Source of the DNA: an uncultured Oscillospiraceae bacterium
Lineage (GTDB): Bacteria; Bacillota; Clostridia; Oscillospirales; Ruminococcaceae
DNA length: 64,000 nt
Assembly (NCBI GenBank): GCA_949295465.1
Contig: CASFKY010000053.1
Span: 1-64,000, forward strand
Reading direction: 5' to 3'
This document shows positions 20,288-30,982 of this stretch, piece after piece. Within the stretch, counting starts at the first letter, position 1. Every line of letters begins with the position of its first letter. The position numbers and the translations under genes were made by a program. The notes below the pieces were generated by a model. The model saw only the letters and a program-made list of their open reading frames with translations. It was not told where the DNA came from and did not search any database.

Positions 20288-20366
20288 ATGGTGATCATAT
20301 GACTGACGGAATAAGTGGATGAAACCACGTGGAGTATGATCGTGAACCGGCCGACCGTCTGGGCAG
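20288..20366 (+). ncRNA. ZTP (pfl-motif) riboswitch
   Basis: The RNA has the pfl-motif hallmarks. A first helix carries GATCATATGACTGACGG (family form: UCGUGACUGGCG), then a hairpin AAGTGGATGAAACCACGTGG, and after a variable linker the signature CCGACCGTCTGGGCA (family form: CCGNCUGGGC). The last part also forms the 5' arm of a terminator, so ZMP/ZTP binding should prevent termination and switch on pflA-pflB. The class senses the purine/folate intermediate ZMP/ZTP, linking formate production to one-carbon shortage. Recognised by eye, without a covariance-model score. Confidence 0.85.
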
Positions 20367-20396
20367 AAAAAGCCCGGACGGTCGGCTTTTTCTTTT
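20350..20396 (+). terminator. Riboswitch-controlled terminator
   Basis: GCCGACCGTC (20350-20359) pairs with GACGGTCGGC (20377-20386), with GGGC/GCCC stacked inside and TTTTTCTTTTG after. Its 5' arm is the conserved 3' half of the riboswitch, so the two structures exclude each other. Confidence 0.85.
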
Positions 20397-23872: not shown

Positions 23873-26800
23873 ATGACATTGCAACAAGAACACTCCCCCG
23901 CCCTGGCCCTGGCTGTGGGCATCGACATCGGCTCCACCACCACCAAGGTGGCCGTTCTGGACCCGAACCTGGAAACCCTCCTCTACTCGGACTACCAGCG
24001 GCACCACGCCCACCAGGCCCAGAGCGTTTTGCTGGTGCTGGAGACTCTGGAACAGAAATTTCCCGGCCAGGCCTTCCGCTTCTGTCTCACCGGCTCGGGG
24101 GCCAAGCCCATTGCGGAGGGGCTCAATCTGCCCTTTGCCCAGGAGGTGGCGGCCAATGCCGCCGCCCTCAAGCGCCGTTACCGGCGGGTAGGCAGCGCCA
24201 TTGAGCTGGGCGGCCAGGATGCCAAGATGATCTTTTTCCAGACCGACCCGGCCACCGGCGAGCTGAACGTGGCGGACATGCGGATGAACGGCAGCTGTGC
24301 CGGCGGCACCGGCGCCTTCATCGACGAGATCGCCTCCCTGCTGAAGGTGCCGGTGCAGGACTTCAACGCCCTGGCCGAAAAGGGCAGCTGCGTCTATGAC
24401 ATCTCGGGCCGGTGCGGCGTCTATGCCAAAACCGACATCCAGCCTCTTCTGAACCAGGGGGTAGCCAAGGCGGATCTGGCCCTCTCGGCCTTCCACGCCA
24501 TTGCCAAGCAGACCATCGGCGGTCTGGCCCAGGGGCTGGAGATCACCCGGCCGGTGGCCTTTGAGGGGGGGCCTCTCACCTTCAACCCGGTGCTGGTGCG
24601 GGTATTTGCCCAGCGGCTGGGCCTGAAGGAGGAGGAGATCCTGCTGCCTCCCCACCCTGAACTGATGGTGGCCTGCGGCGCCGCCGTCTGTGCCGGGACG
24701 GTATTTGACCAGGAAAGCCAGCCCATGCAGCCTGCCGGGCTGCTGGAGGAGCTGAGAAGCGGACGGCTGCAAGAGACGGAAGCCCAGGGGCCGGCCTCCC
24801 GCCCCTTTTTTGAATCTCCTGAAGAGCTGGAAGCTTTTCGGGCCCGCAACCCCAAGCATCCCCTTGCCTGGAAACAGCCCCAACCGGGGGAGGAGGTATA
24901 TGCCTACCTGGGCATCGACTCGGGCAGCACCACCACCAAGTTCGTGCTGATGGACGACCGGGAGGAACTGCTGGGCTCCTTTTATGCCTCCAACGCCGGC
25001 GAGCCCCTGAAAGTGGCCAAGAAGGCCCTGCTGGAGATGCGGGATCGGTATCGGAAAGCGGGCGCCCGGCTGCACATCCTGGCGGCGGGCACCACCGGCT
25101 ACGGGGAGATGCTGTTTGCCAAAGCCTTCGGGGCCGAATATCACACGGTGGAGACAGTGGCCCACGCCCGGGCAGCCCGGAAATATGTGAAGGATGCCAC
25201 CTTCATTCTGGACATCGGCGGCCAGGACATGAAGGCCATGTGGCTGGACAAGGGGATCATCACCAACATCCTGGTGAACGAGGCCTGCTCCTCCGGCTGC
25301 GGCTCCTTTCTGGAAAATTTCGCCTCCTCCCTGGGCATCCCCACCCGGCAGATCGAGACGGCGGCCTTCTCCTCCCCCCATCCGGCGGTACTGGGCAGCC
25401 GGTGCACCGTGTTCATGAACAGCAGCATCATCACCGAGCAGCGCAACGGCAAGAGCCCCGAGGACATCATGGCCGGGCTCTGCCGCTCCATCATCGAGAA
25501 CGTGTTCACCAAGGTGATCCGCCTGTCCAACCTGGATTCTCTGGGCGAGCGGGTGGTGGTGCAGGGCGGCACCTTTGAGAACGACGCGGTGCTGCGGGCC
25601 ATGGAGGAGTACATCGGGCGGCCGGTGACCAGAGCCCCCTACCCCGGCCTGATGGGGGCCATCGGCATGGCCCTGATCACCCGGGAGCGGTACCACAAGA
25701 ACCCGGACCGCCGCACCTTCCTGGGGCTGGACGAACTGGAGAACTTCTCCTACCACCAGGAGGAAAATGCCCCCTGCCCCTTCTGCACCAATCACTGCAA
25801 GCGCACCATCCTGCGCTTTTCCAACGGGGAGGCCTGGATCACCAACAACCGCTGCGAGCGGGGAGAAATCCTGGGCGACCCCAAGGATGAGACGGTGCGC
25901 CGCCAGCTGAAGGACACGGTGCAGCGGGCCCGCTCGGTGCCCAACCTCTACCGGGACCGGGAGGCCCTTCTGCTGCGGGAATACCCCTTCCCCGCCCCCG
26001 CCCGGGACCGGGGCATCACCATCGGCATCCCCCGGGTGCTCTTTTTCTGGGAGACGCTGCCCTTCTGGGGCACCTTTTTGCGGGCGCTGGGCTTCCGGGT
26101 CCAGCTCTCCGACCCCAGCACCCGGAAGATCTACGAGCAGGGCATCTCGGCGGTCACCTCCGACACAGTCTGCTTCCCCGCCAAACTGGTCCACGGCCAT
26201 CTGCGCAACCTGGCCCAGAAAAAGGTGGATCGGATCTTCCTGCCCGCGGTGACCGCCGTGCCCTCCGAGAATACCCAGAAGACCAGTCAGTCCATGTGCG
26301 CCGTGGTAAAGGGGTATCCCCTGGTCATCGGCAACTCGGACAATCCGGAAAAGCTCTGGGGCATCCCCTATGACGCCCCCCTGTTCTACTGGTACACCCC
26401 CGAGGACCAGAAAAAACAGCTGAAAGAGTACATGAAGAAAAAATTCCAGATCCCCGAGGAGGAGACGCTGGCGGCTCTGGAGGCGGCCAACAAGGCCCAG
26501 GAGACCTTCCACACCGAGCTGAAGGCCCGGGGCAGCCAGGTGCTGGCCCAGGCGGAACAGAGCGGAAACTTTGCGGTGGTGCTGGCCTCCCGCCCCTACC
26601 AAAACGACGCCCTGGTGAACCACGAGCTGCCGGAAATCTTCACTGGCATGGGAATCCCGGTGCTCACCGCCGACGCCCTGCCCGGCACCGAGCAGGAGGA
26701 CCTGAGCATGAGCCGGCTGAACATCGTGAACAACTTCCACGCCCGGATGCTCTCCTCGGCCATCCTGGCCGCCAAGAACCCCCATCTGGAATATGTGCAG

Positions 26801-28246
26801 ATCGTGAGCTTCGGCTGCGGCCATGACGCCTACCTTTCCGACGAGATCACCCGGCTGATGAAGGAGATCTCCGGCAAGATTCCCCTGATCCTGAAGGTGG
26901 ATGAGAGCGACATTCAGGGACCCCTGCGGATCCGGGTGCGCTCCTTCTTGGAGACGGTGTCCATGCGGCGGGCCCTGGGCGAGGACCCGGAGCCCCATTC
27001 CCTGGCCGACCCCTACCCGGTGAAATTTGAGAAATCGGACCGGGAAAAGACGGTGCTGGTGCCCAACACCTCCCACGCCTTCTGTCGGCTGCTCTCGGCG
27101 GTATTCCGCACCCAGGGCATCCGGGCCGTGCCCCTGGAGGTGGGGCGGGAGGAGGCCATTGAGATGGGCAAGCGGTATGTGCACAACGACATCTGTTTCC
27201 CCGCCCAGATGGTGGTGGGCGAGATCCTCAGCGCCCTGCGCAGCGGCAAATACGACCTGGAGCACACCGCCGTGGCCATGGCCAAGTACATTGGCGACTG
27301 CCGGCTGACCCATTACAGCGCCCTTTTGCGCAAGGCCATGGACGACGCGGGCTTTGCCCGGGTGCCCATCCTCACCAATGACGACCAGGACTCCCACCAT
27401 CTCCACCCGGGATTTCATTTGAACCTGCTCTCCTCCGCCCGCATTGCCTTCGGGCTGCCCATGATCGACGCCCTGGAGGAACTGCTGCGGAAGATCCGCC
27501 CCTATGAAAAGATCCCGGGCAGCGCCAACAAGGCCTTTGACCAGGCCCTGGACGCGGTGATCGAGGGGATGGAACACGCCGGCATCCGGGGGGCCGAAAA
27601 AGGGCTGCGCCGGGGCATCCAGATCCTGAAAGAGGTGCCCTATGATCGGTCCCATCCCCGGCCCCGGGTGCTGATCGTGGGTGAGTACCTGCTCAACTTC
27701 CACCCGGGCGCCAACCGGGACATCGAGGCCTATCTGGAGAAGAACGGCTTTGAGATCATTGAGGCCCGGATGACCGACGTGATCCAGAAGACCTACTTTT
27801 ATCAGGACAGCCAGATCCGGGAAAAACATGTGCATCGTCCCGGCTTCACCAAGATCTGGTGCAGCACTGCCGATCACTTCTTTGACATGGCCCACAATCT
27901 CACCGATCGGATCGCCTGCGCCCATCCCCTCTACCAGAAGGCGGCCCGGATCCAGCAATTGGCCCAGAAGAGCGACCCCATCATCCCCCACACCTTTGAT
28001 GCCGGCGAGGGGATTCTGATTCCCGGAGAGATTCTCCACCACGCAGAGGAGGGCTGCCGGGCCTTCGTGATTTTGCAGCCCTTCGGCTGCCTGCCCAACC
28101 ATGTGGTGGGCCGGGGCATCACCAAAAAGATCAAGGAGGAATATCCCGACGCCCAGATCCTGCCTTTGGACTACGACCCGGACGCCAGCTTTGCCAACAT
28201 CGAAAACCGGCTCCAGATGCTGGTGATGAACGCACACAACGTCTGA
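23873..28246 (+). CDS. Giant fusion: two BcrAD/BadFG-type activase domains plus 2-hydroxyacyl-CoA dehydratase-like domains
   Basis: A 1457-residue protein. Two ATP-binding activase modules start at about residue 15 (GIDIGSTTTKVAVL) and 346 (LGIDSGSTTTKFVLM). Each has the Cys that bridges a 4Fe-4S cluster in homodimeric activators (Cys142 in NGSCAGGTGAF; Cys472/Cys476 in ACSSGCGSF). A CPFCTNHC motif (Cys635-642) precedes a DUF2229-like domain (about 690-910). The last 400 residues resemble HgdB-type dehydratase subunits. Such fusions are widespread in Firmicutes with unknown substrates. By analogy it would use ATP to drive one-electron reduction of a partner or of its own cluster. Confidence 0.88.
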   Translation: MTLQQEHSPALALAVGIDIGSTTTKVAVLDPNLETLLYSDYQRHHAHQAQSVLLVLETLEQKFPGQAFRFCLTGSGAKPIAEGLNLPFAQEVAANAAALKRRYRRVGSAIELGGQDAKMIFFQTDPATGELNVADMRMNGSCAGGTGAFIDEIASLLKVPVQDFNALAEKGSCVYDISGRCGVYAKTDIQPLLNQGVAKADLALSAFHAIAKQTIGGLAQGLEITRPVAFEGGPLTFNPVLVRVFAQRLGLKEEEILLPPHPELMVACGAAVCAGTVFDQESQPMQPAGLLEELRSGRLQETEAQGPASRPFFESPEELEAFRARNPKHPLAWKQPQPGEEVYAYLGIDSGSTTTKFVLMDDREELLGSFYASNAGEPLKVAKKALLEMRDRYRKAGARLHILAAGTTGYGEMLFAKAFGAEYHTVETVAHARAARKYVKDATFILDIGGQDMKAMWLDKGIITNILVNEACSSGCGSFLENFASSLGIPTRQIETAAFSSPHPAVLGSRCTVFMNSSIITEQRNGKSPEDIMAGLCRSIIENVFTKVIRLSNLDSLGERVVVQGGTFENDAVLRAMEEYIGRPVTRAPYPGLMGAIGMALITRERYHKNPDRRTFLGLDELENFSYHQEENAPCPFCTNHCKRTILRFSNGEAWITNNRCERGEILGDPKDETVRRQLKDTVQRARSVPNLYRDREALLLREYPFPAPARDRGITIGIPRVLFFWETLPFWGTFLRALGFRVQLSDPSTRKIYEQGISAVTSDTVCFPAKLVHGHLRNLAQKKVDRIFLPAVTAVPSENTQKTSQSMCAVVKGYPLVIGNSDNPEKLWGIPYDAPLFYWYTPEDQKKQLKEYMKKKFQIPEEETLAALEAANKAQETFHTELKARGSQVLAQAEQSGNFAVVLASRPYQNDALVNHELPEIFTGMGIPVLTADALPGTEQEDLSMSRLNIVNNFHARMLSSAILAAKNPHLEYVQIVSFGCGHDAYLSDEITRLMKEISGKIPLILKVDESDIQGPLRIRVRSFLETVSMRRALGEDPEPHSLADPYPVKFEKSDREKTVLVPNTSHAFCRLLSAVFRTQGIRAVPLEVGREEAIEMGKRYVHNDICFPAQMVVGEILSALRSGKYDLEHTAVAMAKYIGDCRLTHYSALLRKAMDDAGFARVPILTNDDQDSHHLHPGFHLNLLSSARIAFGLPMIDALEELLRKIRPYEKIPGSANKAFDQALDAVIEGMEHAGIRGAEKGLRRGIQILKEVPYDRSHPRPRVLIVGEYLLNFHPGANRDIEAYLEKNGFEIIEARMTDVIQKTYFYQDSQIREKHVHRPGFTKIWCSTADHFFDMAHNLTDRIACAHPLYQKAARIQQLAQKSDPIIPHTFDAGEGILIPGEILHHAEEGCRAFVILQPFGCLPNHVVGRGITKKIKEEYPDAQILPLDYDPDASFANIENRLQMLVMNAHNV

Positions 28247-28264
28247 ACCCGCGGCAGAAACAAA

Positions 28265-28300
28265 AAATCCCCCCGACCGAAAAGGTCGGGGGGATTTTTG
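28265..28300. terminator. Bidirectional terminator between the activase fusion and cstA
   Basis: A 14-base stem, ATCCCCCCGACC with GGTCGGGGGGAT at its heart, a GAAAA loop, and flanking A- and T-runs. It serves both convergent genes. Confidence 0.9.
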
Positions 28301-28334: not shown

Positions 28335-30017
28335 TCAGGCAGCCTGAGCCTCGCTCTCGGTATTGCCGAACAGGTACTTGCAGCCGTCGATCAGCAGCAG
28401 CACCGCCAGCACCAGCATGGGAACGATGATGATGCTCTGCAGCACGTCGGTGAACATAGTGGTGGCATCCAGGCCGCCGCCCATCACAGACTGCACGCGG
28501 GAGATCAGGGTCAGCACCAGGCTGGACATGGAGGCCAGAGCCATGAAGAACATGGGGATGATGAGCATCTTGTAGCCCTTGCCGATCTTCTTCAGGAAGA
28601 CGGCGGCAGCCATCAGAGCGGGCACAGCCACCATCTGGTTGGCAGCGCCGAACAGAGGCCAGATCTTGTCATAGCCGGCAACCACCAGCAGGCCGGCAAA
28701 GGCCAGGTTCACGATGGTGGATATGTACTTGTTCTGCAGAGCGGTCTGCAGGCCAGTGGGCTGAGCGCCCTCCTTGGGCTGGAACATCTCCTGCAGGGTG
28801 AAGCGGCCCAGACGGCAGCAGGTATCCAGAGAGGTGAGGCAGAAGGCGGACACGGCCAGGCAGATGACGGTGTAAGCCACCTCGGCGGCCTGGGCGCCCA
28901 TGCCCATGGTCTCAAAGAAGGTACGCACGCCGGTGGCGAAGACCACGGCGGGGGTGCCGATGGCGGCGTAAGCGCCGTCGCTGGTCAGGTTGCCCACGCA
29001 GACCAGGCTGATCACAGCCAGCACGCACTCGATGAGCATGCCGCCGTAGCCGATCATCTTGGCGTCCTTCTCATTGCTGATCTGCTTGGAAGTGGTGCCG
29101 GAAGCGATCAGGGAATGGAAGCCGGACACAGCGCCGCAGGCGATGGTGATGAACAGGGTGGGGAACAGGTAGGTGCCGTTCAGCTTCCAGCCGATGAAGG
29201 CGGGCAGCTGGATGTCGGGGTTGGCACCAAAGATGCCGATCACCGCGCAGATGATCATGAAGTACAGCAGGAAGCTGTTCAGGTAGTCACGGGGCTGCAG
29301 CAGAATCCACACAGGGGTGACGGAAGCGATGGCGCAGTACACAAAGACCACCACACGCCAGAAGGTGACGTTGTCCACCACCAGGGGGAAGTAGATGCCA
29401 CCGACCACGCACAGGGCCAGCACAATGACGCCCACCACGCTGGAGATGAACAGGGGGGTATGCTTGCGGTACACCGCAAAGCCGAAGGCGATGGCCATGG
29501 GGATGAACAGAAGGCTGGCCATGGCCACGCTGCCGCTGCCGCCGGTGGAGGGGGCGAAGGTCTTGGCCACGATGTCGGCAAAGGCGGCGTCCACCAGCAG
29601 CATCACCAGCCAGGTGAAGACGCTGAACATCATCTTGCACTTATGGCTCAGGGAAACTTCCAGCACTTCGCCGATGGATTTGCCCTTGTTGCGGATGGAG
29701 ACGAACAGGGCGCTGAAGTCCTGCACGGCGCCGATGAAAATACCGCCCAGCAGAATCCACAGCAGGCAGGGCAGCCAGCCGAAATAGGCAGCCTGGATGG
29801 GGCCGTTGATGGGGCCCGCGCCGGCGATAGAAGCAAAATGATGACCCAGCAGCACAGGAGCCTTGGCGGGGCAGTAGTCCACACCATCCTCCAGCTCAAA
29901 GGCAGGGGTCTTGCGAGCAGGATCGATGCCCCACTGTTTCACCAGCCAGCCGCCGTAACCGACATAGCCGACCAGCAAAACAACGATGGCAATCAGCAGC
30001 AATACGATACCACTCAT
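28335..30017 (-). CDS. cstA: CstA family carbon-starvation transporter
   Basis: A 560-residue integral membrane protein with about 14-16 helices. Family signatures include LLGHHFASIAGAGPINGPIQ, GGIFIGAVQDFSALFVSIRN and GTTSKQISNEKDAK. CstA proteins import pyruvate or peptides. A good ribosome site (AAGGAGG) precedes the ATG. It follows, in the same direction and 82 bases downstream, the T-box-controlled unknown gene, so both probably form one operon responding to an uncharged tRNA. It ends at a strong terminator. Confidence 0.93.
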   Translation of the reverse strand: MSGIVLLLIAIVVLLVGYVGYGGWLVKQWGIDPARKTPAFELEDGVDYCPAKAPVLLGHHFASIAGAGPINGPIQAAYFGWLPCLLWILLGGIFIGAVQDFSALFVSIRNKGKSIGEVLEVSLSHKCKMMFSVFTWLVMLLVDAAFADIVAKTFAPSTGGSGSVAMASLLFIPMAIAFGFAVYRKHTPLFISSVVGVIVLALCVVGGIYFPLVVDNVTFWRVVVFVYCAIASVTPVWILLQPRDYLNSFLLYFMIICAVIGIFGANPDIQLPAFIGWKLNGTYLFPTLFITIACGAVSGFHSLIASGTTSKQISNEKDAKMIGYGGMLIECVLAVISLVCVGNLTSDGAYAAIGTPAVVFATGVRTFFETMGMGAQAAEVAYTVICLAVSAFCLTSLDTCCRLGRFTLQEMFQPKEGAQPTGLQTALQNKYISTIVNLAFAGLLVVAGYDKIWPLFGAANQMVAVPALMAAAVFLKKIGKGYKMLIIPMFFMALASMSSLVLTLISRVQSVMGGGLDATTMFTDVLQSIIIVPMLVLAVLLLIDGCKYLFGNTESEAQAA

Positions 30018-30099
30018 TGTTTTGATTCCTCCTTATGTTTCAACATACAATCTATGCCCATAAACGGGCTCTCGCCCGCGGCACCTTGTTTTGGGGACC

Positions 30100-30642
30100 T
30101 CAGCCCTCACCGGCCAGCTTTTTCAGCACCGACTGATGGAACTTGCGCAGTACCCGGCCGTCCCGGTTGGTGTAGATCTTTTTGCCTTCCAGATCCACCA
30201 GCACGATCCGGCCCTCACTGTAGCCCCGCAGGTAAAAATGATAGAACTTCTGGAACCGAAACCGCTTTACGGCCCGGACGGTGTCCGCATCCGGGCTTTT
30301 GGCCGAGATGAGCACCAGGGTCAGGTAAGTGTACATGTGGTCCTTGGGCATGGAAGGCTGCCCCTTGCGGGCCAGCACCGGCTCCATATACTCCCGCACC
30401 ACCGCCTTCAGCCGAGCGATCTCCTCCGGGCCGGGGGCTTCCTGGTAGGTGGAAAACAGGCAGTACTCGTGGCTGTCCACCGCCCAGATCTGGGCCTTTT
30501 TCACCAGCACATACTTGTCCACATGGGCGTGGAAGGCGCCGCAGGCCGCATATTCCCGGCCCTGGATATGGGCGGGCTTTTCCAGGTCGAAGCTGCCCTC
30601 GTAATAGGGCAGCAGCTTTTCAAAATACTCGGCTGCCTGCAC
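30100..30642 (-). CDS. Unknown protein controlled by a T-box (180 aa)
   Basis: Starts at a GTG (VQAAEYFEKLLPYYEGSFDL) with a perfect AAGGAGGAG seven bases upstream; the open frame upstream of it runs through the T-box RNA and is not coding. The protein mixes helices and strands with no membrane segment. Noticeable stretches are HVDKYVLVKKAQIW, a mid-protein DHMYTYLTLVLIS and a basic C-terminal half (RFRFQKFYHFYLRGYSEG). I do not recognise a family. Position between a T-box and cstA suggests a soluble partner of CstA-mediated uptake or an amino-acid-related role; this is inference. Confidence 0.8.
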   Translation of the reverse strand: MQAAEYFEKLLPYYEGSFDLEKPAHIQGREYAACGAFHAHVDKYVLVKKAQIWAVDSHEYCLFSTYQEAPGPEEIARLKAVVREYMEPVLARKGQPSMPKDHMYTYLTLVLISAKSPDADTVRAVKRFRFQKFYHFYLRGYSEGRIVLVDLEGKKIYTNRDGRVLRKFHQSVLKKLAGEG

Positions 30643-30666
30643 GGCCGCGCTCCTCCTTCCCGGGAC

Positions 30667-30905
30667 AAAAAAACGCTTCGTCTCACAAAGAGACGAAGCG
30701 TAACACTCCGCGGTACCACTCTCGGTCCGCGCCCCGGCGCGGCTGCTTTGCGGGCCTTTGGCCCTGCCTGGTAACGGGCGGTCCCGGCCGGGCCTACTCT
30801 TGCGATGTTCAGCCCGGCAGCTCCCAGGTGAGGGGGATCCTTGCCCCTTGCCGCCTCGCACCAGCCGGCGGCTCTCTGAAAAGCGTTCAAAAGATCCTCA
30901 TGTCC
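30667..30905 (-). ncRNA. T-box leader (tRNA-sensing riboswitch)
   Basis: On the minus strand: a stem I with AGAGAGCCGCCGGCTGGTGC (K-turn and apical GGUUGGUG-type motif), then CTGGGAGCTGC and GCTGAACA; the specifier side ends CGCAAGAGTAGGC. The antiterminator carries the conserved AGAGTGGTACCGCGGAGT (about 30704-30722). A 10-base-pair terminator (ACGCTTCGTC/GACGAAGCG) follows, with seven T. By the usual rule (codon directly before AGUAGG) the specifier is AAG, Lys, at 30799-30801; GCA (Ala) one frame back cannot be excluded. It controls the 180-residue protein and probably cstA. Confidence 0.9.
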
Positions 30906-30982
30906 TGTTCACAACTTTTTCATATTTGCACTTATATAGTTTAATCATGTTGACGGTTTTCGTCAAGGAGCAAATCGCCCAA

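Follow-up and report, generated by a model that had tools for sequence, protein, structure and literature searches.

A T-box leader with a predicted leucine specifier precedes cstA and a conserved gene for a 180-residue protein in Fournierella

The window, the whole stretch of 64,000 nucleotides analysed here, comes from a Fournierella species of the gut, with which the sister species Fournierella massiliensis was compared. The locus lies on the minus strand. Its distal gene, cstA (28335..30017), encodes a 560-residue transporter of the carbon-starvation family (PF02554, E 2.6e-152; 508.8 bits against a curated cut-off of 27). Before it lies a gene for a protein of 180 residues (30100..30642), which starts with GTG at 30642, stops at 30100 and is preceded by the ribosome binding site GGAGGAG (30650-30656). 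Upstream of this gene, cmscan placed a T-box leader reaching from stem I to the antiterminator (RF00230, 30686..30921; 101.9 bits, E 2.4e-21). The match covered the full length of the model (1-219 of 219) and exceeded the gathering cut-off of 93. The leader ends in an intrinsic terminator (30673..30701), which the terminator scan resolved as a 12-pair hairpin followed by TTTTTT. These matches uphold the preliminary description, in which a complete T-box with its terminator, the 180-residue gene and cstA all lay on one strand. The range that it gave, 28335-30905, was right at the cstA end but short at the upper bound, since the T-box extends to 30921.

A sigma-70-like promoter (TTGACG-17-TAAACT, 30938..30966, minus strand) was identified 5' of the T-box by a consensus scan. 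This match is weak by itself; the scan returned 3 promoter-like sites in the region compared with 1.2 expected in shuffles. At the other end, a strong intrinsic terminator of 16 pairs (28263..28299, minus strand) was called 3' of cstA, and the gene beyond it (23873-28246), which carries acyl-CoA dehydratase activase domains according to Pfam and NCBIfam, runs in the opposite direction. A terminator between the 180-residue gene and cstA had been named beforehand as a finding that would speak against a common transcript; the terminator scan found no canonical terminator in the 82-nt gap. The gap holds the short hairpin CGGGCGAGAGCCCG (30065..30078, minus strand), whose loop is GAGA in the window and GCAA in the sister. 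As an intergenic terminator this hairpin was rejected: only TTTAT follows it, its fold (z -1.24) was not significant, and the scan did not call it. The T-box, the 180-residue gene and cstA are thus supported by sequence as one T-box operon, in which transcription would read through to cstA.

The same order of T-box, 180-residue gene and cstA was found in F. massiliensis, where the T-box leader is kept (L011/L043/L115) and the 180-residue gene starts with ATG at the position of the window's GTG. Identity between window and sister was 91-93% for the 180-residue protein and about 95% for CstA. Directly 5' of the operon, the window encodes a zinc-dependent phospholipase C-like protein (PF00882, 30983-31966, minus strand), which is also kept in the sister. 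Two other RNA elements of the window scored above their Rfam cut-offs, a THF riboswitch (47632-47526, minus strand) and a ZMP/ZTP riboswitch (20289-20371, plus strand).

The 180-residue protein matched no family in Pfam, NCBIfam or PDB sequence searches. When 13 members of its family were scanned, the best E values were 0.13 with Pfam and 0.0058 with NCBIfam, with matches in one member each. Residues H102 and G140 are invariant among 49 members and E59 is present in 48. No membrane helix was detected in the family, in which the highest mean hydropathy over 19 residues was 1.47. An AlphaFold2 model built from five sequences had a pLDDT of 79 and a pTM of 0.79, and a Foldseek search of the PDB with this model gave no convincing match (best E 0.024, TM 0.26), so that it is gene order that argues for a role as a partner of CstA.

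Gene order was conserved. Relatives of the protein included four from named genomes. Within the bacterial family, 10 of 396 genomes (own genome included) had a match, and a profile search of 398 sampled Bacillota genomes detected the family in 41. In 38 of these 41 the partner gene lies next to cstA, as judged from loci for 30 genomes and from further CstA loci and coordinates for the other 11; G048 and G811 were exceptions, and G556, with partner and cstA on different contigs, may be a third. Among the loci read by script (L043-L083, own locus included), cstA was beside the partner on the same strand in 39 of 41, with the partner first in 36 and cstA first in 3, while L053 and L055 had no cstA beside the family gene. 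In three loci (L049-L051) the two genes touch, stop on start. Viewed from the transporter, 23 of the best 30 CstA loci from the 398 genomes (own included) had an adjacent partner, 18 before cstA and 5 after it. The other seven had none, indicating that not all CstA proteins need a partner. The assignment of the 180-residue protein to CstA, and the conserved linkage proposed as a check on it, were thus both borne out. The 180-residue gene and cstA are a conserved unit, as judged from gene neighbourhoods; T-box control appears as a local addition and does not define the unit, since the two genes are linked in many more genomes than have a T-box there.

By its position the protein recalls YbdD of Escherichia coli, and a CstA accessory would be its simplest role. 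In both systems the gene of a CstA-family transporter has that of a small protein as its neighbour, and YbdD is needed for pyruvate uptake, which fell to 20% after loss of YbdD and to 13% after loss of cstA in the account given in parts of PMC5847655. The 180-residue protein matched neither the YbdD/YjiX family nor any other Pfam or NCBIfam model and so is not of the YbdD family, and its gene mostly precedes cstA. E. coli CstA has 701 residues compared with 560 in the window, and the window CstA scored 267.8 bits against the equivalog for E. coli-type pyruvate/proton symporters (NF011590), below the cut-off of 1188. YbdD-like open reading frames (ATG start, 40-120 residues, on the cstA strand, beginning at most 350 nt after cstA) were absent from 11 of 12 CstA loci picked; the sole one, in the window's own locus, starts 218 nt downstream of cstA and past the terminator. 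We know of no T-box in E. coli. In a CstA tree made by a quick method (60 rows, long branches), partner-bearing and partner-free proteins fell into different clades with one exception. The partner-free proteins formed one clade of 19 (support 87); outside it lay row L144, which has a long branch, and four distant paralogues. Two distant CstA paralogues of related genera (L018, L025) stand beside genes that by eye resemble those of response regulators, an arrangement that recalls pyruvate-sensing systems.

To place the specifier, the lower stem-I helix was paired and the three bases ending one base before the helix were read, which is the preferred frame of TBDB in the sections of PMC7778990 that deal with it. 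A loose form of the rule was run first and then narrowed, and the narrowed rule is accordingly not a blind test. In the window the lower helix is formed by CAGG (30907-30904) and CCUG (30828-30825), and the narrowed rule gave CUC (Leu; 30830..30832, minus strand), followed by A at 30829, as the sole candidate, as it did in F. massiliensis. With the loose rule another helix ranked first for the cstA T-boxes, and CUC was third in the window and second in the sister. The specifier had been taken to be AAG (Lys), with GCA (Ala) as the alternative. Stem-I pairing does not agree with either, as these triplets sit in upper stem I, away from the lower helix, and points to CUC (Leu) as the probable specifier of the cstA T-box. 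The same triplet is the specifier in 74% of the Leu T-boxes of TBDB, again according to the sections of PMC7778990 at hand. The antiterminator T-box sequence AGAGTGGTACCGCGGAG (30707..30723, minus strand), placed by the cmscan alignment and read directly, contains UGGU, which would match a tRNA whose discriminator base is A.

The rule was assessed on 15 control T-boxes from the two Fournierella genomes whose target, checked by NCBIfam, names an amino acid. It called 13 of them and gave the expected amino acid in eight (valS twice, thrS, ilvB, leuA, pheS, tyrS and one ilvA). Both aspS T-boxes (L007, L123) read AAC (Asn), which would presumably suit an AspRS able to charge tRNA-Asn as well. The misses in the remaining three (one ilvA and both cysS) were off by one base, with the expected codon ranked second. 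Two alaS T-boxes received no call and show GCC in the Rfam alignments. The rule is therefore imperfect, being fully correct for 8 of the 13 controls that it called.

The specifier region departs from the usual design. Like the leaders of the leucine regulon (RF00230, for example that of F. massiliensis leuA), the window's leader has stem I, a specifier, a AGTGGTACCGCG bulge and a competing terminator, but the GAA/AGUA motif usual in such loops is absent from its specifier loop, whose 5' strand is complementary to the specifier. This facing strand, UGAGG (30896-30900), is complementary to CCUCA (30829-30833), is kept in the sister and, as we take it, resembles the anticodon loop of tRNA-Leu(GAG). 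When 27 T-boxes (29 minus the two of alaS) were checked for four bases at nt 18-32 complementary to the specifier and the base after it, 3 had them, namely both cstA T-boxes and the F. massiliensis ilvA T-box. Folding of stem I alone gave no signal (z 0.25 and 0.33). The UGAGG strand is possibly an internal competitor, or it may be there by chance. It also bears on a different reading, in which the specifier is shifted by one base to CCU (Pro) or UCA (Ser). Frames -1 and +1 are also weighed in TBDB, as the same parts of PMC7778990 state, and UCA at frame +1 is common to both lineages of cstA T-boxes described below. The loop is non-canonical, the UGAGG/CCUCA helix is the one ranked top by the loose rule (with UCC in the window and CCC in the sister), the minimum-energy fold of the window stem I forms this helix although the sister stem I folds otherwise, and three called controls were shifted by just one base. 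We nevertheless regard a shifted frame as improbable, given the eight correct controls, the two aspS calls of Asn, and the second rank of the expected codon in all three misses; moreover, the Fournierella cstA T-boxes give one candidate and the other nine give AUC first. A Ser frame would also match poorly at the acceptor end, as the discriminator base of tRNA-Ser is G, which UGGU fits only by wobble.

Among the loci scanned, T-boxes before cstA had a narrow distribution. Rfam found no T-box at its cut-off in L044-L053 and none at E up to 0.01 in L055-L074 or L075-L083, and a further Rfam scan of loci returned a T-box only in the two Fournierella loci. Because the Rfam cut-off may miss weak T-boxes, a model was built of the 3' half alone. 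It recovered 9 of 9 known T-box control loci and found nothing in the remaining 59 of 68 sources, among them 46 loci with partner and cstA from genera other than Fournierella. In a second genus, of which 16 genomes were examined, all with a CstA-like match, a T-box was present before a cstA that has no partner. T-boxes were found by Rfam before cstA in 8 of 16 loci scanned, which with the first case (L104, genome G776) makes 9 of 16 genomes. Their scores, 71.5-84.3 bits, fell short of the cut-off of 93, and E did not exceed 1.7e-13; the specifier was AUC (Ile) in all nine. Four loci of this genus with partner-type CstA (L129-L131, L140) had no T-box by Rfam or by the 3'-half model. The next gene was RelA_SpoT-domain-like in five of the nine T-box-cstA loci (L104, L133, L134, L135, L138), as assigned by Pfam in L104 and by eye in the other four.

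The occurrence of cstA T-boxes in Fournierella (2 of 2 genomes) and a single further genus, and nowhere else among the scanned loci, with none by the 3'-half model in the 46 partner-cstA loci elsewhere and Rfam in agreement where it was applied, is what one might expect if a chance rearrangement had brought a T-box in front of an existing partner-cstA pair with no special link to the substrate of CstA. That account seems quite unlikely to us: the arrangement is kept in both Fournierella species, and in the second genus the T-box stands before cstA genes of a distant clade and has a branched-chain specifier there too. In the quick tree the T-box CstA of the second genus lies in the partner-free clade, far from the CstA of Fournierella, and two separate gains are the simplest account. 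CstA would thus have been tied twice to a shortage of branched-chain amino acids, once through a Leu T-box and once through an Ile T-box.

In the window's own genome, an AUC T-box precedes an SBF transporter (L002 1501-2801, G000:C14) that resembles the ketopantoate/pantothenate transporter PanS at 302 bits, below the cut-off of 400, and a CUG T-box precedes a CitMHS/MatC-like transporter (L006 44-1735, G000:C55); both loci come from contigs other than that of the window, in a draft whose contamination is estimated at 2.8%. Known members of these two transporter families carry organic acids. The SBF/PanS-like and CitMHS/MatC-like genes are absent among the targets of the 11 T-boxes of F. massiliensis, which are the cstA pair, ilvB, leuA, ilvA, pheS, alaS, tyrS, valS, aspS, cysS and an L-lactate-dehydrogenase-like gene. 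In that species ilvB, ilvC and ilvD are lined up behind one T-box and leuA stands behind another, which reads CUG compared with CUC for cstA. The window's own genome, which is 84% complete, yielded two ilvD-like genes, one of them over the cut-off; ilvC and leuA, both present in the sister, were not found in it and, given the completeness, may be missing from the assembly only.

A Leu-type T-box before the cstA pair suggests a part for CstA in the supply of leucine or of the compounds from which it is made. The preliminary description had gone further and read the T-box as a sign of amino-acid or peptide uptake instead of pyruvate uptake. The tie to amino-acid supply stands; the exclusion of pyruvate does not, since pyruvate is itself a branched-chain precursor: the synthesis of valine and of leucine starts from it, and that of isoleucine uses it as one of two starting compounds. 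According to the available text of PMC7730263, E. coli CstA transports pyruvate with narrow specificity. The organic-acid families of the other transporters, the pyruvate specificity of the E. coli protein and the place of pyruvate as a precursor together make import of pyruvate or a branched 2-oxoacid our first choice. We put at about an even chance the combined proposal that a tRNA-Leu T-box governs the two-gene operon, that CstA imports a 2-oxoacid for branched-chain synthesis and that the 180-residue protein is its partner. By this proposal, uncharged tRNA-Leu with anticodon GAG would pair with the CUC specifier and its acceptor end with the UGGU bulge, the antiterminator would be held, and RNA polymerase would read through into the 180-residue gene and cstA; with charged tRNA-Leu the terminator at 30701-30673 would form. 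Leucine starvation would then lead to import by CstA of a branched-chain precursor, most simply pyruvate and possibly a branched 2-oxoacid. The 180-residue protein would act as a soluble partner needed by CstA proteins of its own clade, a Bacillota counterpart of YbdD in role and not in sequence.

The leader could also be an ordinary uptake T-box, with CstA importing leucine-containing peptides or an amino acid; we consider this main rival rather unlikely. T-box-controlled amino-acid transporters are known (PMC2494555, in the part available), amino-acid transporters make up 4 of 25 T-box units of Clostridioides difficile in the portion of PMC11477304 at hand, and Campylobacter and Salmonella mutants in CstA-family genes are cited in PMC7730263 as poor at peptide use. 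Import of the finished amino acid would moreover be more useful if ilvC and leuA, not found in the own genome, were absent. Against this, only pyruvate and bromopyruvate competed in the uptake tests of E. coli CstA reported in the same text, and the other branched-chain T-box transporters of the own genome belong to organic-acid families. A pure pyruvate reading is itself sensitive to these two genes: if ilvC and leuA are truly absent there would be no route from pyruvate to leucine, and a branched 2-oxoacid or a peptide would fit better. The CUG of the leuA T-box in the sister, in place of CUC, and the CstA loci that have no partner also count against the combined proposal.

T-boxes and CstA are each known already, and we make no claim of a first report for a T-box over this cstA or for the 180-residue family. 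A close precedent is the LIVCS transporters, likewise placed under branched-chain T-boxes in the accessible part of PMC2494555; these are amino-acid:cation symporters, whereas the known substrate of CstA is pyruvate. Leucine-regulon T-boxes differ in that here a CstA-type transporter is the target, together with a partner from an unnamed family. The literature searched showed no T-box over this cstA, including the accessible parts of PMC2784878, PMC2494555, PMC3766115, PMC7778990 and PMC11477304, nor was the 180-residue family found in it; the search covered main texts other than the main surveys PMC2271356 and PMC2650889 and not supplements. The CstA of PMC10715087 is a sulfurtransferase, and the sections of that paper available hold no T-box on a cstA of the window type.

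The substrate of CstA is disputed between pyruvate and peptides, and branched-chain T-boxes in two distant lineages offer a physiological clue that is independent of homology. In Bacillota, the conserved 180-residue neighbour, from a family with no Pfam or NCBIfam match, gives the search for a CstA partner a concrete candidate. More tentatively, some gut Bacillota may answer branched-chain starvation, through Leu and Ile T-boxes, by salvage of keto acids and not by uptake of amino acids, with three unrelated organic-acid transporters (CstA and the PanS-like and CitMHS/MatC-like proteins) behind branched-chain T-boxes and the 180-residue family as an obligate subunit or activator of CstA; if so, this family would be the Gram-positive answer to YbdD for one CstA clade. 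As a separate observation, a UGG (Trp) T-box of F. massiliensis (L122 1501-3226, G001:C7) precedes the L-lactate-dehydrogenase-like gene and a gene for an ABC substrate-binding protein, a dehydrogenase being an odd target for a Trp T-box.
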